Shown: positions 4,869 through 16,562 of the stretch, in pieces
How the letters are laid out: each line of letters opens with the position of its first letter
Position numbering within the stretch: position 1 is the first letter of the stretch
DNA from: Deltaproteobacteria bacterium RIFOXYA12_FULL_61_11
GTDB taxonomy: Bacteria > Bdellovibrionota_F > JAHFAK01 > YA12-FULL-61-11
Assembly (NCBI GenBank): GCA_001799195.1
Contig: MGSU01000053.1
Location: forward strand, 1-16,995
Direction: 5' to 3'
DNA: 16,995 nt
Position numbers and translations under genes: made by a program
Notes under the pieces: generated by a model
Databases searched by the model: none
What the model was told of the DNA's origin: nothing
What the model saw: only the letters and a program-made list of their open reading frames with translations

Positions 4869-6845
4869 TTACCAGGAGGCCACGCAACGGAAGCCGAGGG
4901 TGAAGGTGCTGGTATTGCGGTGGATCGAGGGTCGGGACGCGATCTTGATCATACCCGTCCCGTTGCTGACGCTGCCGCCCTTGGTAATACCCTCGCTCGC
5001 GGAGAAATCGGCGCAGGGGGATCCTGCCGGGAGTTCGGTACAGGCGGAGGGGGTGTAGCTGTCGAGCACCCATTCGTCCAGGTTGCCGGCCATGTGCAGG
5101 AGGCCGAACGGGGAACGGCCGGCTGGTCTGGCGTCGGCGGCGAGCAAGTCATCGAAGTAACCGGTGCAGTTCTGACAGTTCGAGTACTGTTCGGCCCCGT
5201 TGGGCACGGCGTCGCCCCAGGGGTACGTCCTGCCGTCGGCCCCGCCTGCCGCATAGCTCCACTGGGCCTCGCTGGGGAGGTCCCCCCCGGGGGCTTGCCA
5301 GGCGCAGAAGGCTCGGGCCTGGGCCCAGGTGACCATGTTTACCGGCAAGTTCCCTCGGCTGGAGACTCCGTAGGTGTGCCAACGCGCATTGCCGCTGCCG
5401 TAGAGCGTGTCGGTGTCGCTCGGGGCGGTACAAACCCTGGCGTTGACACAGGCAGCGTACTGCGTTGCGGTGACCTCGGCGACCATGATCTGGAATGGCT
5501 GGAGGGTTGCGGTGGCGCCGTTCGAGCCCAGGGGGAAGGTCCCACCGTGGAGGAGGCACCACTGGTTGTCGCAGCGGTAGCGGTGGACCAGAGTCGGGGC
5601 TTCGGCCTTGGCCACCGCGCCGTCGGCGGCGGCGAGCCAGACCATGGGCCGCAGGTGGGTTAGCCGCTCGGGCAGGGTCAGGGTGAGCGGGAGGGCCAGT
5701 TCGGCCGTGGGGCCGGACAAGGGAATCCAGCGCGTATCGGCCGAGGTCGGGGCCTGCGCTTCATCGAAGGTCGGGAGATAGGCGGTGACGCCGGCGGGAT
5801 GCCGTGCGCCGAGCACCACGTCGAGGGTGTTCCCCTCGGTGCTGGTGAGTTCCCCGGTGACGGTCAGCGAGGTCGCGGTGAAAGGGGCCGGAGGGAGCGG
5901 TTGCGACGGAGGGTCGGGGACCTCAGCGGAAGGATCAGGGTCAACCGAGGGCGAAGTCGGGTCCACCGGAGGCTCCGGTTCACCTGCGATCGGGGGCGGG
6001 CTGGGAGCGACCGGTGCGACGGGAGCGGGGAATTCGCTGTCGCCGGAGGAGGCAGGGGCGGTCGGCGCGGGGGCGAGTTCAGAGGGGAGGGAGGTCACGG
6101 CTTGGCCTTGGACAAGGGGTTCGGCCCCGGCGGCCGGCCATGCGACGAGACCGGCGAGGATCGTGGAGCTGCCGGGGAGGGGAACGGTACCGAAGGCCTG
6201 GGCCGGCAACAGGATTGTGAAGGTACCGGTGCCGTGGCCAGAGACAGGTGCGGTGGCACAGAGGGGGAAGCCTGGGCCTGTTTGCGGCGGTTGGATCAGG
6301 CACAAGAAGGCACTGGGCCCACCCGGGGACGAGGGAGGGAGTTGGCGCAGGAAACGGTAGGACGCGGGTTGGTCGTCCGGCACCAGGATGCGGTCGTCGG
6401 GGATGAGGATCCGGTCGTCGGGGATCAGGATGTCGTTCTCGGGTATGAGAATGCGTTCTTCGGGGATGATGATGTGGAGGTCTTCGTCCACGAGGATCTG
6501 CTCCCCGGGGATTCCCAGGCGGAGCCCGGCGCCGACGAGCCTGCTCCCCGGCGGCAGCGAGAGCGACAATCCTTGGCTCGCGAAGGCTTCGGCCGGTCGG
6601 TCGTCGGGAATGAGGATCGGCTCGGTGTGGAGGGTCCCGCGGATAGAGCCCTCGGGCACGATGATGGCGAGAGGGATGATGGCGAGAGGGACAGAGGCTT
6701 GTTCTGCCGGGAGGGGGACTTCCTGAGCGGGTGGGGTTTGCACGTCCCGGCGGATCAGATTTGTTTCGCCGCCGCAGGCGCACAGGAGAAAGGTGGTCAG
6801 GATCGGCCACCAAATCCGAGGGACGGGGAATTCGGCGAGGTTCAC
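4869..6845 (-). CDS. Lipoprotein with heptad repeats and a C-terminal SUMF1/FGE-like domain
   Basis: I prefer the GTG at 6845 (658 residues) to the ATG at 6875. GCAGGA precedes the GTG at normal spacing, and an extended -10 box lies about 35 bases upstream. The ATG would sit on the transcription start with no ribosome site. The signal ends in LLCACGG, a lipobox with Cys24. Residues about 110-158 contain tandem heptads of the form ILIPDDR. A long Pro/Ala/Ser/Glu linker follows at about 330-400. The last 200 residues form a formylglycine-generating-enzyme/SUMF1-like fold, shown by GGTFPLGS, the VTATQYAACV segment, LPSEAQWSYAA, YPWGD, MAGNLDEWV and the closing GFRC. In secreted proteins this fold usually serves as a binding module rather than an oxidase; which applies here cannot be told. 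Four extra cysteines (CDNQWC, SNCQNC) may form disulfides. Confidence 0.85.
   Translation of the reverse strand: MNLAEFPVPRIWWPILTTFLLCACGGETNLIRRDVQTPPAQEVPLPAEQASVPLAIIPLAIIVPEGSIRGTLHTEPILIPDDRPAEAFASQGLSLSLPPGSRLVGAGLRLGIPGEQILVDEDLHIIIPEERILIPENDILIPDDRILIPDDRILVPDDQPASYRFLRQLPPSSPGGPSAFLCLIQPPQTGPGFPLCATAPVSGHGTGTFTILLPAQAFGTVPLPGSSTILAGLVAWPAAGAEPLVQGQAVTSLPSELAPAPTAPASSGDSEFPAPVAPVAPSPPPIAGEPEPPVDPTSPSVDPDPSAEVPDPPSQPLPPAPFTATSLTVTGELTSTEGNTLDVVLGARHPAGVTAYLPTFDEAQAPTSADTRWIPLSGPTAELALPLTLTLPERLTHLRPMVWLAAADGAVAKAEAPTLVHRYRCDNQWCLLHGGTFPLGSNGATATLQPFQIMVAEVTATQYAACVNARVCTAPSDTDTLYGSGNARWHTYGVSSRGNLPVNMVTWAQARAFCAWQAPGGDLPSEAQWSYAAGGADGRTYPWGDAVPNGAEQYSNCQNCTGYFDDLLAADARPAGRSPFGLLHMAGNLDEWVLDSYTPSACTELPAGSPCADFSASEGITKGGSVSNGTGMIKIASRPSIHRNTSTFTLGFRCVASW
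6369..6500 (-). repeat. Degenerate 21-bp tandem repeat encoding ILIPDDR heptads
   Basis: At least five consecutive 21-base units encode variants of I-L/I-I/V-P-D/E-D/E/N-R/D inside the SUMF1-type lipoprotein. The best conserved units encode ILIPDDR followed by ILVPDD. A single related copy (EPILIPDDRP) lies about 50 residues earlier, and IIPLAIIVPEG is a looser relative. Confidence 0.75.
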
Positions 6846-6880
6846 AGGTCGCAATCCTGCAATAGTAAAGTCCATCCGTA

Positions 6881-6889
6881 ATACTAGCA
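6881..6889 (-). promoter_or_regulatory. Extended -10 promoter for the SUMF1-type lipoprotein
   Basis: The minus strand reads TGCTAGTAT, an extended -10 box (TGn plus TAGTAT). No good -35 is visible. Transcription would start near 6874, which favours the GTG start at 6845 with a leader of about 30 bases. Confidence 0.4.
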
Positions 6890-6969
6890 CAGGCGGGGAG
6901 GATTGGAGTCGGTCGGGCGGAATATTTACCGTGGGGGTCGACCTGGAGACGGGAAGCGGCTGCCCGGGG

Positions 6970-7620
6970 TCAGGGCTCCCAGCGCCAGCCGTGGAGATGG
7001 GCGGCGACCTCCTCGTCCATGGCCACCTCCATGCCCTCGAACCTGACGATGAAGGTCGGACGCTTCTGGTGGATCTCGATGACCACCCCGGGGCGCAATC
7101 CGAGGTTGAGCAGCTTGTGCAGCATGTCATGGCTGCTCGGGCGGACGTAGGCGATGCGGATCTTCTGGCCGATCTCCAGGTCGGTCACGCAGGTGATGCG
7201 CTGGGTGATGTCGACTTCGTGGTTGAGGCAGCAGTGTCCCGGGGGAATCCGTCGGCCGTGAGGACATTCGGTGGGATGACCGAGGAGGACGCAGATGCTC
7301 TTCTCGACCTCGGGGATGACTCCGTGCTCGAACTCGCAGACGATGGCTTCGGCCTTGTCACCCTTGAGATTGAGGACGCGGTCGAGCAGGACCTCGCCCA
7401 GGCGTTTGCGCCGGATCAATCCCGCCGAGCGGCAGCGGCCGGTGTCGGTCATGCGGATCACGTCGCCCGGTAGTTCGACGAGGCCTGCCGCGACCATCTC
7501 GGCGAGCAGGCTGTCGCTCCAGTCGCCGTGGCTCAAGGCCCGGACCCGTTCGCGGGTGGGTGTGCCGGACTCCTCGGCGATCCAGACCGCCTCGAGGATT
7601 TCTTCCATTTCTCTAGTCAT
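6970..7620 (-). CDS. DtxR-family metal-dependent regulator fused to a FeoA domain
   Basis: This 216-residue protein combines a DtxR/MntR-type repressor with a C-terminal FeoA (SH3-like) domain. Residues 1-70 are the winged helix, with the wing near LVELPGDVIRMTDTGR. Residues about 70-130 form the dimerisation and metal-binding part. C95, E98 and H99 (CEFEH) match the primary metal ligands of the family, and LGHPTECPHG is a family signature. An additional C119/H121/C130/C131 cluster is notable. The FeoA part spans about 141-212 (LGLRPGVVIEI is typical). The start at 7620 is set by AGGAGG six bases upstream. The gene follows feoB by 24 bases, so the pair is almost certainly co-transcribed. It probably represses its own iron-uptake operon when Fe(II) is plentiful, and the FeoA half may contact FeoB. 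Confidence 0.88.
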   Translation of the reverse strand: MTREMEEILEAVWIAEESGTPTRERVRALSHGDWSDSLLAEMVAAGLVELPGDVIRMTDTGRCRSAGLIRRKRLGEVLLDRVLNLKGDKAEAIVCEFEHGVIPEVEKSICVLLGHPTECPHGRRIPPGHCCLNHEVDITQRITCVTDLEIGQKIRIAYVRPSSHDMLHKLLNLGLRPGVVIEIHQKRPTFIVRFEGMEVAMDEEVAAHLHGWRWEP

Positions 7621-7644: not shown

Positions 7645-9612
7645 TCAAGAACTGAAGAACTCGACGACCCGGTTCAGGACGAGGTTGAGCAGGCTGCCGA
7701 GCAGGAGCGCATAGGTTACCACGAAGGCGCAGATGGCCAGCGCGGCTTTTGTCCCGAGTTCCTTGACGATGACCAGGATGGTGTTGACGCAGGGGATGAG
7801 GAAGGTCACCAGCAAGAGATTGATCACGATCTGCACCGGCGTGAAGGCGCCGCGGTGGACGTAGTCGGCCAGGAGGGCGACTCCGGCCTCGCGGCGGATG
7901 GTCGAGAGCAGGAAGACGTTGACACTCTCGGGCGGCAGGCCGATCAGTCCGGACAGCACCGGTGCGGCGAGACGTTCGAGCAGCGCGATGCCTCCCGCCT
8001 CGTCCAGGACGAAGAGCAGGAAGGTCGCCAGGAGGAACACGGGCAGGGCCTCGTGGAGGAAGAACCACGTGCGTCGCAGGGCATTGTGGAGCAAGGGGAA
8101 CAACTTCGGTAAACGAAGGGGGGGGATCTCGAGGAGCAACGGTGTTGGACGGCCCGGCAAGAGACGGTTGGCGAAGTGTCCGACCAGGCCGACTTGGAGC
8201 AGGACGAAACCGAAGATGAAGGGGCCGCCCCAGACCGGCAGGTCGCCGAGCAGGACCAGCATCACGCTCAACAGCGGAGCGCAGGGAATCCCCAGGACCA
8301 AGAGCAGCGTGGCCAGGATGCGTTCGCGGCGGTGGTTGAGGATGCGGGTGGACAGCACGGCCATGGTGATGCAGGAGAAGCCGAGGATGACCGGCAGCAC
8401 GGCTTTGCCCGAGAGGCCGATCCGGCGGAAGGTCCGGTGCAGCAATACGGCTAAGCGGACCATGTACCCACTGTTCTCGAGCAGACCGAACGCGGCGTAA
8501 AAGGTGAGCAACACGGGCATGACGAGGCCCAGCGAGAGCGCGAGGCCGGTGCTGAGCAGCCCGAATTCGCCGACCAGCGCGCGCACGAGGAGCGGAGGGG
8601 CTGTGTGACCTTCGAGGAAGGTCCGAGTGGCCGGGACGAGCAGTTCGCCGAAGAGGCGGCCTTCGAGTTGCTCGACCAGGAATTCGGCGCCGAGCTTCCC
8701 GACCACCAAGAACATCAGCGACAGGACCGCGAGGGCGATGGGAATGCCGGTGATCGGATTGCGGGCCCACATACCGACCCGGTCGATGAGCGGGAGGGAG
8801 GGGCTGGAGGTGGTTTCCAGGACGCTCTCGGTGAGGTGCTCCGCGGCGGATTGGTAGACCTCGAGCAGCAGGAGATCGGGGGCCTTTAGCAGGCTGTTCT
8901 TCGTCGCGGTGATGAGCTGGCGCAGGGCCTCGCTTTCGTCGGGCGACAATCGCCGGTCGAGGTGGTGCCGGACAACGTCGTCCTCGGCGAGGGCCGAGAG
9001 CAAGAGACCGCGGGCGAGTCGGCGGCCGGGAGTAACCTTCTCGGCTTCCTCGAGGTATCGACGGACGGCCCCCGGCAGGGGGAGCTGAGCGGTCAACCGG
9101 GCGACCTCACCGGTGCGGCTGCGCAGGTTGTTCACGCCGCCGCCTTCGACCGCGACCGTGGAGACGACGGGGACTCCGAGCAGTCTGGCCAACCGGTCGG
9201 CATCGACCCGCAGGTTGCGCACCAGCGCTTCGTCGACCATGTTGAGGACGATGAGGAGCGGAACGCCGAAGTCGGCATAATGCAGTAAAAGGGTCAACGA
9301 GCGCTTGAGGTTGCGGGCATCGGCGACAAAGAGGAGCCCGGTCGGGGATCCGTCGAGGAGCAGCCGCTTGGTCGTGACCTCGTCCTCGTTCTCCATGAAA
9401 ATGGTGTTCGCGCCCGGAGGGCAGAGCAGCACGACCTCGCCCAGGTAGTCTTGCCAGGTACCCTTGCGGATCGCCCCCGGATGACCGGATCTCTCGGGCT
9501 CTTGGCGGTCGCACAGGCGCTCGAATAGAGTACTGCGGCCGACGTTGTCCTGGCCCGCCAGCAAAAAAGTCCTGGAAGGCGGGGTTACGGATCGCTCGAG
9601 GGGTTGCGACAC
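7645..9612 (-). CDS. feoB: Divergent FeoB-type ferrous iron transporter
   Basis: This 655-residue inner-membrane protein is predicted to move Fe(II) into the cytoplasm. The N-terminal G domain (1-170) has a recognisable but altered P-loop, GQDNVGRST at 20-28, with Arg26 where Lys is normal. The G3 region reads LCPPG (63-67) in place of DLPG, so the Mg-binding Asp is missing. G4 is intact (NMVD, 124-127). A helical linker follows, then the permease half with the duplicated Gate segments. ENSGYMVRLAVLLHR, IGLSGKAVLPVILGFSC, GIPCAP, the STIRREAGVAL block and FLIPCVNTILVIVKELG match FeoB positions. The start is a GTG preceded by GGAG at five bases. Length is slightly below the usual 700-770. The permease half makes the family assignment firm; GTPase activity is doubtful. 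Confidence 0.87.
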   Translation of the reverse strand: MSQPLERSVTPPSRTFLLAGQDNVGRSTLFERLCDRQEPERSGHPGAIRKGTWQDYLGEVVLLCPPGANTIFMENEDEVTTKRLLLDGSPTGLLFVADARNLKRSLTLLLHYADFGVPLLIVLNMVDEALVRNLRVDADRLARLLGVPVVSTVAVEGGGVNNLRSRTGEVARLTAQLPLPGAVRRYLEEAEKVTPGRRLARGLLLSALAEDDVVRHHLDRRLSPDESEALRQLITATKNSLLKAPDLLLLEVYQSAAEHLTESVLETTSSPSLPLIDRVGMWARNPITGIPIALAVLSLMFLVVGKLGAEFLVEQLEGRLFGELLVPATRTFLEGHTAPPLLVRALVGEFGLLSTGLALSLGLVMPVLLTFYAAFGLLENSGYMVRLAVLLHRTFRRIGLSGKAVLPVILGFSCITMAVLSTRILNHRRERILATLLLVLGIPCAPLLSVMLVLLGDLPVWGGPFIFGFVLLQVGLVGHFANRLLPGRPTPLLLEIPPLRLPKLFPLLHNALRRTWFFLHEALPVFLLATFLLFVLDEAGGIALLERLAAPVLSGLIGLPPESVNVFLLSTIRREAGVALLADYVHRGAFTPVQIVINLLLVTFLIPCVNTILVIVKELGTKAALAICAFVVTYALLLGSLLNLVLNRVVEFFSS

Positions 9613-9752: not shown

Positions 9753-9956
9753 GAAGTGGCTTGACCGCCGCTCTTCCAAAGCATGTATGAAGTGGGACCG
9801 TTTCAATCGGCTCCTCCAGCGGTATCCGCTGCCTGTGCCGGTGGCCATCCACTCCATCTGCCGTCGCGGAGCGAGTCCGTGACCTGAGGAACCGGATGCG
9901 GTAATCCTGCACCACGTCCGGATCTGTGGGAACCCAAGGAGGGTGACCTCCCTGGG
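9753..9956 (+). mobile_element. Group II intron 3' remnant, copy 1
   Basis: This is a 5'-truncated group II intron. Bases 9754-9882 encode the last 42 residues of the intron-encoded maturase, including KWLDRRSSKACMKWDRFNRL and LLQRYPLP, and end in TGA. Seven bases later, 9889-9924 can fold as a domain-V-like hairpin in which GAACCGGA pairs with TCCGGATC. A second hairpin, CCCAAGGAGG(GTGA)CCTCCCTGGG at 9933-9956, could be domain VI with a GNRA loop. The part up to 9931 is repeated at 12281-12439 plus 14084-14103 with four differences in the first 159 bases. No reverse transcriptase core remains, so it cannot move by itself. It begins 140 bases upstream of feoB, on the opposite strand. Confidence 0.7.
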
Positions 9957-10170: not shown

Positions 10171-10605
10171 ATGCAACGACGACCTAACCGATTCAACTCG
10201 AAACGCAAAATGCACCTCTTATCGCCTGAGTTATTGCAACAATGCGCTGTTCTTTCAGAAAGCGTCAGATATGGCGGCAATCCTGAGCACAAGAAAAATC
10301 CCGGGGATTTCGGGTTAACCCCTCCCTCTGCGCCTAGAACTGCAAAATCACTCTGTGATAGTGTCGCAATATTTAAGAAATCACTTGCAATGAAGTATTT
10401 AAAGAGGGGTTTAAAAAGGGGGCTTGTTTCCGAGCAAATAGTAAATGGTTGGCCTCAAAATATATGGTCGTTAACTGATTCAGGCTACCCCATTGAAGCA
10501 CAGCTAGAAAACTCTGAAACCGGTGTATATCACGGGTATCCCATGCCGGAATCAGATCCATTCTCTGTGGAAGTAGTAGCAGCGTGGAAAGCCCGCAATG
10601 TCTAA
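10171..10605 (+). CDS. Winged-helix-like protein, first gene of the cassette
   Basis: I place the start at the ATG at 10171 (144 residues), which has GGAAG just upstream; ATG 10210 is an alternative without a ribosome site. The basic N-terminus (RRPNRFNSKRK) is followed by a Gly/Pro-rich segment at 34-56 (YGGNPEHKKNPGDFGLTPP) and then a probable winged helix. Helices span about 59-92 (KSLCDSVAIFKKSLAMKYLK and RGLKRGLVSEQIV), and the wing is WPQNIWSLTDSGYPIEAQLEN. The tail is GVYHGYPMPESDPF. I believe such proteins recur in bacteria but know no named family. It overlaps the next gene by eight bases, so the two are translationally coupled. A DNA-binding role, perhaps autoregulation or an antitoxin-like role, is inference. 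Codon and base usage differ from the GC-rich backbone. Confidence 0.7.
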   Translation: MQRRPNRFNSKRKMHLLSPELLQQCAVLSESVRYGGNPEHKKNPGDFGLTPPSAPRTAKSLCDSVAIFKKSLAMKYLKRGLKRGLVSEQIVNGWPQNIWSLTDSGYPIEAQLENSETGVYHGYPMPESDPFSVEVVAAWKARNV

Positions 10606-11917
10606 GTTCGAAATACGTCAGGCCTGGGTCGCCTCTACTTCAGAGGCGTTAGAGTTTCGGCACACCACTGCCCAGCTCGATATTCTAGTAAATGGGACCT
10701 GTTTGACAAGAAATGAAAATATCTGGTCTCAGTCTATTCAGGATGGAGTGACTGTACCCACGTATCCTTTGGCGCTCTGGTTCTTGAATTCCTGGTGGCG
10801 CCTTCTCTATGAGCCGCTTCCAGCCCAAGGAATTCCGGCTATTGACTGGAGAATGGCGCATGAAATTGGCGCCGCCAATCACGGTATCGTATGGCCCAAA
10901 GTCGTATTTGCAAGCGATGGCCAAAGCATTCAAATATGGGCTAGCCAATTCGATGCGGGCCAATTCCAATCGGTTCGTTACCTTAATGGATTGCCGCAGT
11001 GTGAGTCAATTTCAATTGCTGACTTTAAAAATGCTGTGTTCGATTTTATCTCGACTGTAGACAGTAAATTAAGGGCGGTCGGTATTATTGATTCACCCAT
11101 CTCTGATCTCATTAAGATTATCCAGGAGGAACAAAGCGACGAGAACCAGTCCAAATACCGCAGACTCGAGGCCATTATGGGCTTCGATCCAGATGAATGC
11201 CCTCTCGATGCAATGATCTACGCATCCGAACTAGAGAGTAAAGTCGGACTATCAACATTGGGTGAATTGGCCCCTCTTTATGGAAAGCGAGCCACTACAG
11301 AGCCTCTAAGGGAAATCGAACAGTTTATCTCGTCCGGGGGAGTTGTTGGGCAACCAACTTTTAATAGAGTGGGAAGACATGTTTTACCTACTTGCCATCG
11401 ACCTGCTTGGCAGTCCGCAGTTAACGACGCGCGCACTATTAGATCTCAAATTGGTAATGAACGAGGCCCGATAGATACCACAAGATTGTACGAGCTACTC
11501 GGAATCGCCAGCAAGGACATCGAAAAATGGGCACCCCACACGAGGCGGAGTGTTTCGGTTGGAATCCCAATATCGTCGGGCAAAATTAAATTTGTTCCCC
11601 GCAAGAGTCATCCAATAAGTAAGCGATTTGAGCTGTCACGCTATATTGGGGATATTAATTACGTCAATAGGGGAAACTGGTATGCGACTACTGAATTAAG
11701 TACGCACCGACAAAAATACCAGCGAGCGTTCGCGGCGGAGTTTCTCTGTCCGATTTCCGGATTGACCGAATACCTGAATAATGATTTTTCGGATGAGGCT
11801 ATAGATGAGGCATCAGAGTACTTTGATGTCAGCCAACAAACGATAAATTCCCTTTTAGCAAACAATCATATTACTGAGAAGCCAATCATTCATGATGAGC
11901 TTCCTTACCGAATTTAA
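10598..11917 (+). CDS. ImmA/IrrE-like protein lacking zinc ligands, second gene of the cassette
   Basis: This protein of 439 residues begins eight bases inside the upstream gene. Residues 24-115 form a distinctive N-terminal domain with VNGTCLTR, PTYPLALWFLNSWWRLLYEP, DWRMAHEIGAANHG and VVFASDGQSIQIWA. A helical middle part follows (about 125-330). Residues 342-425 have the layout of an ImmA/IrrE (COG2856) metallopeptidase core: KRFELSRYIGD (342-352) occupies the place of the usual RFTLAHELGH, and AFAAEFLCP (377-385) the place of NRFAAELLMP. The two His and the Glu of HExxH are replaced by R348, D352 and Y349, and the Glu ligand of the EAN motif by Y374. A small C-terminal helical part (FDVSQQTINSLLANNHI) also fits the family. 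It should be non-catalytic, perhaps a sensor or binding partner of the winged-helix protein. The function is unknown. Confidence 0.75.
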   Translation: MSKFEIRQAWVASTSEALEFRHTTAQLDILVNGTCLTRNENIWSQSIQDGVTVPTYPLALWFLNSWWRLLYEPLPAQGIPAIDWRMAHEIGAANHGIVWPKVVFASDGQSIQIWASQFDAGQFQSVRYLNGLPQCESISIADFKNAVFDFISTVDSKLRAVGIIDSPISDLIKIIQEEQSDENQSKYRRLEAIMGFDPDECPLDAMIYASELESKVGLSTLGELAPLYGKRATTEPLREIEQFISSGGVVGQPTFNRVGRHVLPTCHRPAWQSAVNDARTIRSQIGNERGPIDTTRLYELLGIASKDIEKWAPHTRRSVSVGIPISSGKIKFVPRKSHPISKRFELSRYIGDINYVNRGNWYATTELSTHRQKYQRAFAAEFLCPISGLTEYLNNDFSDEAIDEASEYFDVSQQTINSLLANNHITEKPIIHDELPYRI

Positions 11918-12280: not shown

Positions 12281-12439
12281 GAAGTGGCTTGACCGCCGCT
12301 CTTCCAAAGCATGTATGAAGTGGGATCGTTTCAATCGGCTCCTCCATCGGTATCCGCTGCCTGTGCCGGTGGCCATCCACTCCATCTGCCGTCGCAGAGC
12401 GAGTCCGTGACCTGAAGAACCGGATGCGGTAATCCTGCA
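12255..12439 (+). mobile_element. Group II intron 3' remnant, copy 2, 5' part
   Basis: Bases 12281-12439 match 9753-9911 with four substitutions. They encode the same maturase tail (stop TGA at 12408-12410) and the 5' half of the domain-V-like hairpin. The element is cut at 12439 by the IS1380-family insertion and resumes after it at 14084. Copy 2 is in the same orientation as copy 1, so the cassette lies between direct repeats. Upstream of 12255 the sequence no longer looks like maturase, so this copy is also 5'-truncated. Confidence 0.7.
12436..12439. repeat. Target-site duplication TGCA, left copy
   Basis: TGCA here is repeated at 14080-14083 on the other side of the IS. Intron copy 1 (9908-9911) shows the uninterrupted site with a single TGCA. 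Confidence 0.85.
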
Positions 12440-12721
12440 CCCGGATTATTCACCAAGCGCACATGAATCTCGACACAATGCACAATTCGTTCGCCCCAAG
12501 CCCAGCATAACCCCAATATATAGGCCTATGAGGTCATCTATCGACAGGAAATGCATACATTACAAGTATTCGGTTTAAGAGCAGAGCAATATGCCTTGAA
12601 AATAGGCGCACCTGGAGTGGTAGATCAGCGCATTCGCAAGATTTTCGGGTACATGCGCCTAGCCTGAAGCGATGACAAGGCGATAGAAGTCCAGAGCCGG
12701 GGCATCTTTCGTCATACGGAC

Positions 12722-13980
12722 TCAGACGTTGCGGCTCGTGATCTTGATCCAGCAGGCCACCTTGATCAGGCGCAAACGGAGGGTGGCAATGGTCGAGGTC
12801 TCGAACTCGGTTCTCGCAAGCCGTCGATGCATCTCCTTGAAAAGAGCATAGGCAGCAACGTGCAAGAACAGCCGCAACTGATTGGCCTCAAAGCGATGGC
12901 AGCTCGTCCGGTCGGCAGCGAGCTGGCACTTCCACTCCTTGATCCGGTTCTCGATATCCTCACCGCGCTGGCAATACTCCTCATACACTTCGTCCAAGGG
13001 TTCCTGTCGATCGGTCACCACGAAGTGCTGGCGCACCACCCCAGTTGCACGAGAAAAGGTGATGGCAATGACCCTGCGCGCCTGCGGCCATGTCTCGGCT
13101 TGATAGAGGAACTCACGGTAGAGTCTTCCGCCATGCTTGCTGACCGCCTCATAGTCTTCTTGGGCCAGACGGTGCAGTACTGGATTGCCGGCGAGTGCGA
13201 TGGAATACCGCAGCCCAAGCCGCTCGACCGCCGTGAAGAGTGCTGGACAGGCGAATCCGGCATCCATGCGGACGGAGATCGAGAGTTTTGGCAGCCGAGA
13301 GCGGATCTTCTCGATAAGAATCCCTAGAAGGTTCACCGTGATGTGTCCCGCATAGGTCGTACCGGGCAACAAGAGCGGCAGGAGGATATCGCCGGTCGCG
13401 CTGTCGACGATCAGGTAGTGCAGATAACACCGCTCGTCATAGTATCCGTTCCACAACGACAACTGCTGTTGACCGTGCACTTCGTCATCAGTAGGATCAA
13501 AGTCCAGCACCACCTCCTTCCGGCCCGAGGCCTGCCCGAGGCCTTGACCCGGTCGATCCAGTGATGCAACCAGGCGGTCTGCAACCTGACGATATCCTCT
13601 GCACTGCACCGTTCCTCGATTCTCGACAAGGTCGGCTGACTGCCGCTCCTGCCGTGGTCATGCAAGGCCAAAGCGGTCAGAAACGCCGGATCATGGCACA
13701 AGTCGTCGGCATCGTTGCAATCTTCATAGCCCGCTGCGATCTGATAGACCCGTTGCCGGATCAGTGTTTGCTGTTCATAGGTGATCCGGTCTGGATCGCG
13801 AGGATCGAAGAGAGCACGCGAGATCAACCGGGTGATACCGACCTGATCGTCAAGTTGCCGCAGGGCGGGAATCCCTCCGTTGCTGCTCAACTCCTCCTCG
13901 CTCGAAACCATCGTCACTCGCCTCGTCGTTACGCCGATTTTATCTGCGTACAACTCGAGCTGCTCGCGACAGTCTGCCAT
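12722..13980 (-). pseudogene. IS1380-family transposase broken by an 11-bp duplication
   Basis: This is a DDE transposase of the IS1380 type. The 5' part (13980 to about 13545) gives MADCREQLELYADKIGV through QPTLSRIEERCS to HHWIDRVKASG. The 3' part, in another frame, gives RKEVVLDFDPTDDEVHGQQQ, the GYYDERCYLHYL segment, a central VRMDAGFACPALFTAVE and ENRIKEWKCQLAADRTSCHR. The frames are separated by GCCCGAGGCCT occurring twice in tandem (13523-13533 and 13534-13544). Deleting one copy gives a continuous reading DRVKASGRKEVVLDFD and a 415-residue protein, the normal size. The start at 13980 has GAGGA eight bases upstream; ATT/ATG codons further upstream lack this. The catalytic Asp of DPTDDEVHGQ and a Glu in the ENRIKEWK block are present. 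Confidence 0.88.
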
Positions 13981-14019
13981 CGTGATATTCCTCGGTAAAA
14001 TCACTGTAACTTATTTGTA

Positions 14020-14203: not shown

Positions 14204-14911
14204 TTACTCCTTTCCTCCTTGGCTTTCGGTTAAATTTCGGTTTGGGGAATAAGTCGGTACTACAGCCATTTCACGGCAATAACCAATGTAAAAACCAATA
14301 AAGACGCAAAGAGTCACGATTGCAATAGAAAATAATAAAACAAATATTCTACATTTTTTCCTATCAATAGGCATAGCGGATTTTAATTTATTACCATCAA
14401 TAATAAAACTGAAGTAGTCAATCTGATTAGATATATTACCAATATCTTCAATAAAATATTTTTTATTATTAAAAATAATCATTATTGTTCCAATGTCCAA
14501 AAATGCCCAAAGAGGATGATTAATGAAATGAATAGTAGAGATTTCTTCAAGTGGAATAATAATGGTTTTGTTATAGAATAAATTGTTTTCATTGAACACT
14601 ATTCTGCCATTGTCATAAATAATTGTTTTTGTAAAATATTCATAGAAGGCATGTAAAGATATATATGTAAAAAGTACTATCATGATAGCCATTGGGAATT
14701 GAAAAAAACTTCTTAAAGTCCAGAAATTTAGCATAATTCCAGCATGTTCGCCATAATGAAATATTAGTATATTTTTGTTGCTTAAGTATAATAATGTTAC
14801 GCTAATTGGTAACTGAGATAATATAAGATAAATTGTGCTTGTTTTAATAGTTTGGATTTTTTTGTGCAAATCATTGTTATGCGTATTGTGTTGAAGGCTA
14901 AATATCTTCAT
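14204..14911 (-). CDS. AT-rich membrane protein with a bacterial PH-like domain
   Basis: This 235-residue protein is encoded by very AT-rich DNA, unlike everything around it. Two hydrophobic segments (about 24-42 and 62-86, including FPMAIMIVLFTYISLHAFY) precede a β-rich segment (about 95-165). That segment (TIIYDNGRIVF, TIIIPLEEISTIHF, GTIMIIFNNKKYFIEDI) has the strand pattern of bacterial PH (bPH) domains. A third membrane segment lies at about 188-211 (FVLLFSIAIVTLCVFIGFYI). Other proteins of this layout are inner-membrane proteins of unknown or stress-related role. GAGGAG lies 13 bases before the ATG, too far for a good ribosome site. The last residues (TESQGGKE) are encoded by more GC-rich DNA and may be a replaced C-terminus. 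It stands alone between mobile elements and was probably acquired from a low-GC source. Confidence 0.7.
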   Translation of the reverse strand: MKIFSLQHNTHNNDLHKKIQTIKTSTIYLILSQLPISVTLLYLSNKNILIFHYGEHAGIMLNFWTLRSFFQFPMAIMIVLFTYISLHAFYEYFTKTIIYDNGRIVFNENNLFYNKTIIIPLEEISTIHFINHPLWAFLDIGTIMIIFNNKKYFIEDIGNISNQIDYFSFIIDGNKLKSAMPIDRKKCRIFVLLFSIAIVTLCVFIGFYIGYCREMAVVPTYSPNRNLTESQGGKE

Positions 14912-14937: not shown

Positions 14938-15470
14938 TAGCTTCTGCAGCGATTTTTGCAGCATTCCGACCCCCACTCACTCCACACCTAAAAGCAGGCC
15001 TTGAGGTCGTAAGGATAGCAATGCAGACCGGTGACGGTCAACCAGCGGGCGCGCCTCGGCCCTCTTCGCGCGGCGCTTGAAAGACAGCCGATAGGTCGGC
15101 TCAGTCTTTTTTCGAATCAGCGGCGTCGGAGTGGCGGCAGGGATGCCGACCTCCATGCGACGCGCACGAAGCAGCGGCGTCGGAGTGGCGGCAGGGATGC
15201 CGACCTCTAGCGGCGCGGTGGGTGCAGGGCCGCACCCCTCTAGCAGGCCGCAAGAAGCAAGCCTGTCAGGTAGGAGGCAAGCGCAGTCGGGGAGTTGCAG
15301 GTCGCGGCGGACGCGGGTGTTGGTGATCGGGCTCATGAGTGGATCACTACAGCACACCCCGTGCCTCTTGCATTATATTAAATATTCAATATGTTGTGAC
15401 GAGAGATATGGGAACAGTTCTGAAAGACGAATCGAAGTGCCGAAGTCCAACGTGAGATTCGTGATTCTTC
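14938..15470. other. Gene-poor stretch with direct repeats
   Basis: I find no convincing gene here. A minus-strand frame at 14977-15357 is open for 126 codons, but it lacks a ribosome site and repeats VGIPAATPTPL only because of the DNA repeat. The left part is GC-rich; from about 15360 it becomes AT-rich (TATTAAATATTCAATA). The junction with the truncated IS66 element is somewhere between 15400 and 15480. Confidence 0.4.
15118..15207. repeat. Two perfect 36-bp direct repeats with a 54-bp period
   Basis: CAGCGGCGTCGGAGTGGCGG and the 16 bases that follow occur at 15118-15153 and again, identically, at 15172-15207, with an 18-base spacer. Within each copy GTCGG and CCGAC can form a short stem. 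Confidence 0.85.
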
Positions 15471-15815
15471 CCCGGGAGGGGGAATCGTCACGATCGCTTC
15501 CGCTTCGTCAAACAACCCCAACTGGTCGGGATGGATCTTCTCGCTCTTTGGCCGATACAAAGCCCGTTGGAAGTACGCGATCAGCTCTTTCAGTCGCTCG
15601 ACTTCCGCGTTGGCGTGTTTGAGTTCGACCTCTCTGCGTTCGAGTTCTACCTCTTTGCGCTTGAGTTCCACCTCTTTGCGCTCAGCCTCTGCATCTTTTT
15701 GGAGCAGCTCGGTGTGGAAGTGTTCGGTGTGTTCCTCGAGCAAATCGGCCTGGGCGAGCACGAGTCGCTTCAGCTCGTCGAGGTCGTTGGGGAGGTTGTT
15801 CGCAAGCTTGTTCAT
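15378..15815 (-). pseudogene. tnpC: IS66 tnpC transposase, N-terminal fragment
   Basis: The 145 remaining codons start at the ATG at 15815 behind AAGGGGG. LDELKRLVLAQADLLEEHTE begins a strongly charged coiled coil (about 30-85, with repeated ERKEVELKRK units). LKELIAYFQRALYRPKSEKI and HPDQLGLFDEAE are the conserved N-terminal signature of IS66 transposases. Beyond about residue 115 (PPPGEES) the sequence no longer resembles the family; full-length proteins have about 500 residues including the DDE domain, all lost here. The heptad-like KEVELK/REVELK repeats look expanded. Confidence 0.8.
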
Positions 15816-15885
15816 ACCCCCTTGTAGCACACTCAAAATGCGCTGCAAGCCTTTATTTGCAAGGGATTCAGATGACTCTGACTTT

Positions 15886-16242
15886 TTATGCAAGCACCGT
15901 ATAATGACGTGTTTTGTGTCCACCAGTAAGCGGCAACTGCATTCCCTCAAGCAACCAGCTCAGCTCCCGATCGCTGAGCTCGAGCACCTCCTGTTCGCTC
16001 TTCGGCCAGTGAAAGTGCTCCCGGGAAAGACGCTTCTGCCACAGGCAAAACCCCGTGCGATCCCAATAGAGAATCTTCACCTGTTTGTGCCGCTGGTTGC
16101 AGAAACAGAACAGGTGGCCGCTGTAGGGATCCCTCGCAAGTTGTTGCTCGGCTACCATCGCCAATCCATCGATCTGCTTGCGCAAATCCGTCGAGCCGGG
16201 TGCGAGGAACACCCGAACCCCGGGGGCCGGCCTGAACATCAC
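15886..16242 (-). CDS. tnpB: IS66 accessory protein TnpB
   Basis: This 118-residue protein matches the IS66 Orf2 family: GVRVFLAPGSTDLRKQIDGL, ARDPYSGHLFCFCNQRHKQV, KILYWDRTGFCLWQKRL and FHWP are the family blocks in the usual order. Length is typical and the gene looks intact. It may start at the GTG at 16242, overlapping the tnpA stop (GTGA), or at the following ATG at 16239. The tight overlap implies translational coupling with tnpA. With tnpC truncated it has no obvious job. Confidence 0.88.
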   Translation of the reverse strand: MMFRPAPGVRVFLAPGSTDLRKQIDGLAMVAEQQLARDPYSGHLFCFCNQRHKQVKILYWDRTGFCLWQKRLSREHFHWPKSEQEVLELSDRELSWLLEGMQLPLTGGHKTRHYTVLA

Positions 16243-16562
16243 AACCCTCGCAGTGCCACCACGACCTTGCGGACCAAGCTCAAATCGCTTCCACGATGTA
16301 CCTCAATGCAAACCCCTCCAACCTGAAGCACCAGAGCACGGCCTACACGATCGCCCCAGGCTCGTACCTCGACCAGACCGGTCCCTTCCTCTCCCAACCT
16401 CCTTCGCCACCGATAAAAGGTATATTGGTTCAACCCGCGCTGACGGCAATACTCGGCCTGCTTCTCTCCGCTCTCCCTCCATTCCCGTACCTGCCGCCGC
16501 CAATAACTCCGGCGATCCTGCCGGTTTCCCGTCGTCTTCACCTCGATCAACTGCTGTTCCAT
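16239..16562 (-). CDS. tnpA: IS66 accessory protein TnpA
   Basis: This 107-residue protein is the IS66 Orf1 type, a small DNA-binding protein with a helix-turn-helix (EYCRQRGLNQYTFYRWRRRL, about 37-56) behind the conserved YWRRQVREWRESG. The second half (VEVRAWG to VVVALRGL) is the usual β-rich tail. It begins 85 bases inside the left end of the element and is followed by tnpB with a four-base overlap. Confidence 0.85.
   Translation of the reverse strand: MEQQLIEVKTTGNRQDRRSYWRRQVREWRESGEKQAEYCRQRGLNQYTFYRWRRRLGEEGTGLVEVRAWGDRVGRALVLQVGGVCIEVHRGSDLSLVRKVVVALRGL

Follow-up and report, generated by a model that had tools for sequence, protein, structure and literature searches.

A horizontally spread two-gene module pairs a predicted RelE-fold toxin with an ImmA/IrrE-like protein lacking the zinc-site motif

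The usual assumption about ImmA-type antitoxins in phage-defence modules is that they work through their protease. In RosmerTA systems the ImmA-domain proteins are the antitoxins, and NetFlax places such antitoxins in phage defence (PMC10440598); within its node D25 toxin-first order accounts for 58%, and an N-terminal helix-turn-helix (HTH) is frequent but not universal among the antitoxins of this node (PMC10440598). ImmA-type proteins beside RelE toxins had been predicted as toxin-antitoxin modules by Makarova and colleagues in 2009 (PMC2701414), and both that prediction and the RosmerTA work presume a functional protease (PMC10440598, PMC2701414). The gene pair analysed here, ORF1 and ORF2, shares the general layout of these systems and departs from them in the protease itself; the open-licence papers searched yielded no description of the ORF1/ORF2 family, nor of any pseudoprotease ImmA antitoxin.

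The window, by which we mean the whole stretch of DNA analysed, is one complete contig of 16,995 bases. On its forward strand ORF1 (positions 10171..10605, ATG start, 144 amino acids, basic pI 9.6) encodes the predicted RelE/BECR-fold toxin and ORF2 (10598..11917, ATG start, 439 amino acids, acidic pI 5.6) the predicted antitoxin, a pseudo-ImmA protein, with the end of the former overlapping the start of the latter by 8 nt (10598..10605), an arrangement that may couple their translation. The ORF1 start codon is supported by the alignment of its homologues from residue 1. The eight-base overlap and the peptides quoted in a preliminary description of this DNA are present in the sequence, and the low GC remarked on there was measured at 0.43-0.50 over the pair (about 45%) against 0.60-0.70 (about 65%) in the backbone. 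The pair is single-copy in its source genome and is bracketed by a 161-nt direct repeat, whose left (9753..9913, + strand) and right (12281..12441, + strand) copies are 98% identical and the only two in the genome; judged by eye, the repeat resembles the terminal (3') part of the reverse-transcriptase/maturase gene of a group II intron, and an Rfam scan gave no match and no group II intron domain V. Nothing at the pair can be picked out as a promoter, operator or terminator, and the upstream palindrome and promoter signal does not rise above that of shuffled sequences.

Several other features of the contig deserve mention in their own right. To the right of the pair, all on the reverse strand, lie a transposase frame split by a frame change (12722-14004, as 12722-13609 and 13411-14004), which appears to be what is left of an IS element, a 235-residue membrane-protein-like frame of about 27% GC (14204-14911), likely foreign, which sits between IS elements in a region of 60% GC, and a group of small IS66-like genes in which the start of the transposase is truncated (15378-16562). 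To the left, a FeoB-like iron transporter (7645-9612, reverse strand) has an unusual GTPase G3 region, LCPPG in place of the usual DxPG, and adjoins a DtxR/FeoA-like fusion (6970-7620); a 21-bp tandem repeat in five copies (6371-6475) encodes an ILIPDDR-like peptide within the large frame 4869-7130.

Relatives of the pair, gathered by a search with an ORF2 peptide, amount to 179 genome loci, 80 of which were kept. By tblastn, 78 of 87 loci have ORF1 immediately upstream of ORF2, profile comparison detects a 79th pair with a divergent ORF1 in Tistrella, and where no upstream ORF1 was detected the locus mostly lies at a contig edge or holds a decayed copy; in the reverse direction, ORF1 occurs in 3 of 369 genomes sampled from one class, all three of which also carry ORF2. 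The two genes overlap by 1-26 nt in most homologous loci and their pairwise distances correlate (r 0.75; 0 of 2000 permutations). The loci fall in Pseudomonadota, Cyanobacteriota, Planctomycetota, Chlorobiota, Chloroflexota, Thermodesulfobacteriota, Myxococcota and Lentisphaerota, with plasmid-borne relatives in Massilia, Rhizobium, Allorhizobium, Sphingomonas and Tistrella, and this joint conservation of both proteins across several phyla puts the association far beyond chance. Furthermore, the ORF2 of the window nests within methanotrophic Gammaproteobacteria with 99% SH-aLRT support, which, together with a host phylum represented by only 2 genomes in the collection, fits horizontal transfer. 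A neighbourhood survey of the homologous loci revealed no third conserved gene and no co-travelling integrase; a phage genome collection gave no match to ORF2, and viral contigs contributed a single relative. ORF1 and ORF2 thus form a conserved, horizontally spread two-gene module, as the preliminary description had supposed in treating them as genes that travel together and were transferred: homologues of the two do co-occur, neither matches a characterised housekeeping family, and small, adjacent, overlapping, co-occurring and horizontally spread genes are a trait of type II toxin-antitoxin systems.

Neither ORF1 nor ORF2 returns anything above threshold from Pfam, PADLOC, NCBIfam or PHROGs, and ORF1 represents an undescribed family of predicted toxins for which Pfam, NCBIfam and PADLOC hold no model. 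The AlphaFold model of ORF1, built with 64 sequences (pLDDT 80, weak over residues 31-67), runs from helices through a three-strand meander to a final helix, and among solved structures it comes closest to the toxin domain of CdiA from Cupriavidus taiwanensis (CdiA-CT, 5t87_E; Z 5.5, 65 of 69 residues), which resembles residues 64-144 in fold with no detectable similarity in sequence. Subsequent matches reach Z 2.6 at most, with RelE and HigB at Z 2.1-2.5, and 8 of the 17 fold matches listed are RelE, HigB or CDI toxins; Foldseek returned no significant E-value for the model, which makes the fold evidence moderate. Sequence comparison linked ORF1 to no solved toxin, and sequences of either family to no credible relative among solved structures, apolipoprotein and designed-repeat matches having been set aside as compositional; a fold search against viral structures likewise gave nothing for ORF1. 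On the strength of the model, ORF1 is most likely a toxin of the RelE/BECR-type ribonuclease fold, and would as such be expected to cleave RNA and to be toxic.

The alignment of the ORF1 family identifies G36, P95 and G118 as invariant, C62, D63 and W99 as invariant or nearly so, and H40, K41, E109 and Y120-H121-G-Y123-P as near-invariant. Some of these residues fall in a conserved N-terminal loop region (residues 35-63, GGNPEHK.NPGDFGL.PP...K.LCD; 10273..10359, + strand), where the model has low confidence, whereas YHGYP lies on the last beta strand (10528..10542, + strand) and is a candidate catalytic motif that distant ORF1 homologues carry as well. The segments YGGNPEH, WPQNIWSLTD and YHGYPMP, which had been taken for a winged-helix pattern, are therefore truly conserved in the alignment but carry no winged-helix signature: none of the 64 aligned members matches an HTH profile, the model resembles RelE, HigB and CdiA-CT toxins, and the winged-helix fold does not appear in the list of fold matches, an absence that taken alone would be compatible with one.

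A further hint as to function comes from NsnC, a component of the Menshen anti-phage system. Its C-terminal ~65 residues match distant homologues of ORF1 (PDLC03898; E 1.2e-4 and 0.017, in two cousins), so that NsnC and the ORF1 toxin possibly share an effector domain, and the ORF1 family may be common to the effector end of NsnC; the match is nevertheless weak, is to cousins rather than to ORF1 itself, and involves different partners. One locus (L113, 1021-1782) encodes, beside an AAA/OLD-type ATPase, an NsnC-like protein of 253 residues that ends in GGPVYHAYEV; the YHAYEV end is similar to distant homologues of ORF1, a hint at the same shared domain.

The model of ORF2 is of high confidence (pLDDT 93.5, pTM 0.92) and predicts that residues 260-439 adopt the ImmA/IrrE (M78) fold, matching CapP at Z 10.5 and IrrE at Z 9.1-9.3. 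At the level of sequence, the Pfam M78 model recognises 29 of 71 members (best 9.4e-6), with ORF2 itself giving a sub-threshold match over residues 341-416 at 13.4 bits. Within this half, the pseudo-ImmA/IrrE core (residues 266-385; 11393..11752, + strand) is followed by the HTH-like helices that belong to the IrrE fold (residues 386-425; 11753..11872, + strand) and thus sit at the C-terminus and not at the N-terminus. The N-terminal domain (residues 1-165; 10598..11092, + strand), which had seemed novel on a first reading, is modelled with a fold that resembles CdiI immunity and Whirly proteins: residues 2-154 match the CdiI of Burkholderia dolosa (5ffp_A; Z 7.2, 121 of 155 residues, Foldseek probability 0.84), once more with no detectable sequence similarity, and Whirly and PUR-alpha proteins come next at Z about 5.

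These folds bear on two alternative readings. According to the first, which we regard as distinctly improbable, the genes would encode a pair of transcription regulators of the ImmR/ImmA kind that belongs to a mobile element, ORF1 being the winged-helix repressor, as might be suggested by the membership of ORF2 in the ImmA family and by the location of the pair between mobile remnants. The lack of any HTH match among the 64 ORF1 members speaks against it, as do the topology of the ORF1 model, the failure to find an upstream inverted repeat, the absence of a travelling integrase and the lack of any match in the phage collection, with a single viral contig positive. The preliminary description had left the module as regulatory, toxin-antitoxin or defence; because ORF1 is without HTH matches and has a toxin-like model, and because the HTH-like part resides in the ORF2 C-terminus, a toxin (ORF1) with a pseudo-ImmA antitoxin (ORF2) is the better reading when set against an ImmR/ImmA-like regulator pair.

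In the second alternative, the CdiA-CT-like ORF1 and the CdiI-like N-terminus of ORF2 would be an orphan contact-dependent-inhibition toxin/immunity pair retained for contact killing, a scenario we consider scarcely probable. All ORF1 homologues begin at their own start codon without a delivery domain, the immunity-like domain is fused to a full, pseudo-ImmA core, and the pair comes without a delivery protein: no cdiA, cdiB or RHS gene is conserved beside it, and the annotated plasmid loci show none. A cognate CDI relation between 5t87 and 5ffp was likewise considered and dropped, the immunity protein of 5t87 being a different chain of 116 residues.

The ImmA/IrrE core, called pseudo-ImmA in the preliminary description, lacks the catalytic residues throughout the family. 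HExxH is found in 0 of 83 ORF2-family sequences: the first zinc-motif histidine is Arg in all 83, the catalytic Glu position is hydrophobic, mostly Phe, Leu or Ile, and the second histidine has given way to Asp in 65 and to Glu in 13, so that ORF2 itself reads R348-Y-I-G-D352 in place of the motif (11639..11653, + strand). Aligned on zinc-intact cousins, the third ligand position is Gln in 83 of 83, a count biased by the fact that this residue, unlike the Arg, lies inside the peptide of the collection search; in ORF2 it is Q372, replacing the Glu of the cousins (11711..11713, + strand). The core is accordingly predicted from sequence to bind zinc no longer in the normal way.

The cousins in question provide a direct counterpart. 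One of them (L103, 1803-3215) shares the layout of ORF2, retains its HEICH intact, gives a full M78 match (6.3e-10) and is preceded by an overlapping gene of 127 residues with SFHGYP; the pair is flanked by a DNA methylase (HmaB/DUF1156-like) and a phospholipase-D/SNF2 helicase. Taken as a whole, that methylase/zinc-intact pair/helicase operon (L103, 2-5499) looks like a defence system with a built-in toxin module. Further zinc-intact pairs occur on an Agrobacterium plasmid, on a Thiodictyon plasmid and in genome G435, and the distant full-length zinc-intact cousins mostly have a distant ORF1 homologue upstream; a zinc-intact relative in Azospirillum (L109) has a different upstream partner, and a wider search through 289 genomes added only one more distant ORF1 homologue. 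Profile comparison relates ORF1 to the small proteins of the cousins (96.9%, E 1.7e-10) and ORF2 to the cousins themselves (98.2%, E 2.8e-14, 405 columns), and it follows that a single architecture underlies both, with the zinc site either lost in the one or gained in the other, loss being the simple reading since M78 proteins outside the ORF2 family are intact.

The same cousins also supply the best case for an ordinary RosmerTA-type protease switch in which ORF2 would still cleave a repressor, or itself, to free the toxin: sharing its architecture, they match RmrA of RosmerTA (1e-12 and weaker) and CapP, and 29 of 71 members of the ORF2 family match an RmrA model (best 1.2e-7), the ORF2 of the window not among them; NetFlax, moreover, puts ImmA-domain antitoxins in phage defence (PMC10440598). 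With HExxH absent from every family member, Arg at the first histidine in all of them, a hydrophobic residue for the catalytic Glu and Gln for the third ligand, we judge such a switch highly unlikely.

Patterns of decay and divergence bear on the roles of the two proteins. In four loci with a full-length ORF2 (L022, L030, L051, L062) frame changes break ORF1 into pieces; in others of this kind it has an internal deletion (L078), is missing its N-terminal part (L040, L052, L082) or has decayed (L063). An intact ORF1 with a broken ORF2 was seen once (L055), against about 8 loci of the reverse kind, a count that is biased because ORF2 was the route to these loci. Of five frame breaks, four fall in the shorter gene, ORF1 (p 0.015 by length, again among loci collected through ORF2), and across the family the median pI is 9.3 for ORF1 and 5.2 for ORF2. 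In a joint regression, ORF1 distance tracks the ORF2 N-terminal domain (beta 0.68, 0.55-0.80) as against its C-terminal half (beta 0.10, -0.04 to 0.24), and the N-terminal coupling is the stronger one in all 500 taxon bootstraps and in 189 of 200 draws of length-matched columns. From this co-divergence and from its fold, we infer that the N-terminal domain is the part of ORF2 that binds ORF1.

A reversal of roles, with ORF2 as the effector and ORF1 as a small regulator or antitoxin, has precedents: CapP was deposited as a toxin, and Makarova and colleagues list COG2856 proteins as toxins with Xre partners, the small partner being the regulator (PMC2701414). Among the loci found through ORF2, however, it is nearly always ORF1 that decays, ORF1 is basic with a toxin-like fold, and a cousin of ORF1 matches the C-terminus of an anti-phage system protein, NsnC, and we hold the reversed assignment to be improbable.

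The preliminary description had counted a defence module among its readings, and the pair is indeed often found among defence genes. On the Massilia plasmid it comes after dndCDE and dptFGH, with hipA and nucleases nearby, and a PADLOC scan (E 1e-15) of 166 genes lying no more than two positions from the pair in other loci returned JetC/JetD, BrxHI, BrxD, OloA/OloB, SngB/SngC, AbiEi and DpdJ/DpdF as well as three PglZ, three AriA/AbiLi-type and two type I restriction genes, calls that rest in part on broad models and counts that stand without a matched control.

Together, these results lead us to favour, with reasonable though far from full confidence, a mobile, RosmerTA-like toxin-antitoxin module with a pseudoprotease antitoxin and a probable role against phages. 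One overlapping transcript would yield ORF1 together with ORF2, whose CdiI/Whirly-like N-terminal domain would hold ORF1 inactive; since normal zinc binding appears to be lost, the pseudo-ImmA half and the HTH-like tail would serve as a sensor or scaffold, in keeping with the earlier suggestion, still a plausible one, that ORF2 acts by sensing or sequestering and has given up cleavage. ORF1 would be released when a cue from phage or stress acts on the pseudo-ImmA half, or when ORF2 is lost, and the freed toxin would halt growth, most likely via RNA cleavage; that the trigger is a phage is suggested by genomic context. The computed elements of this reading are co-occurrence, the family-wide zinc-site loss, the ORF2 C-terminal fold, the homology to zinc-intact pairs and the defence-gene setting.

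More tentatively, the entire family may consist of pseudoprotease antitoxins in which a conserved Arg-x-x-Gly-Asp replaces the zinc site and a non-cleaving sensor frees a RelE-fold toxin upon phage infection, with sister modules retaining the zinc site and a homologous toxin; were this true, cleaving and non-cleaving control would arise from the same architecture. The ORF2 family is a widespread branch in which the catalytic site is gone while fold, partner and defence-island setting are kept, and its sister branch is zinc-intact. Comparison of the two is therefore a natural test of whether toxin release needs proteolysis and of what a non-cutting ImmA fold senses.

Among described systems, the M78 proteases CapP/CapH and IrrE/PprI resemble residues 260-439 of ORF2 both in fold and in their C-terminal HTH-like helices, but possess the zinc site that ORF2 lacks. 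The COG2856-Xre fusions near RelE toxins (PMC2701414) present an ImmA-type protein adjoining a RelE-type toxin, a pairing predicted to be a toxin-antitoxin module; they keep HExxH and an Xre domain and have been proposed to cleave repressors, in all of which ORF2 differs (PMC2701414). Finally, RosmerTA (RmrT toxin and RmrA ImmA-domain antitoxin; NetFlax node D25) consists, as is predicted for ORF1/ORF2, of two adjacent genes for a toxin and an ImmA/IrrE antitoxin. RmrA often has a small N-terminal HTH and is described as a protease, whereas the N-terminus of ORF2 has no HTH; the Kita toxin of RosmerTA is a membrane depolariser, whereas ORF1 is RelE-like in its model; and ORF2, without a zinc site, instead joins a CdiI/Whirly-like N-terminus to a C-terminal HTH-like tail.
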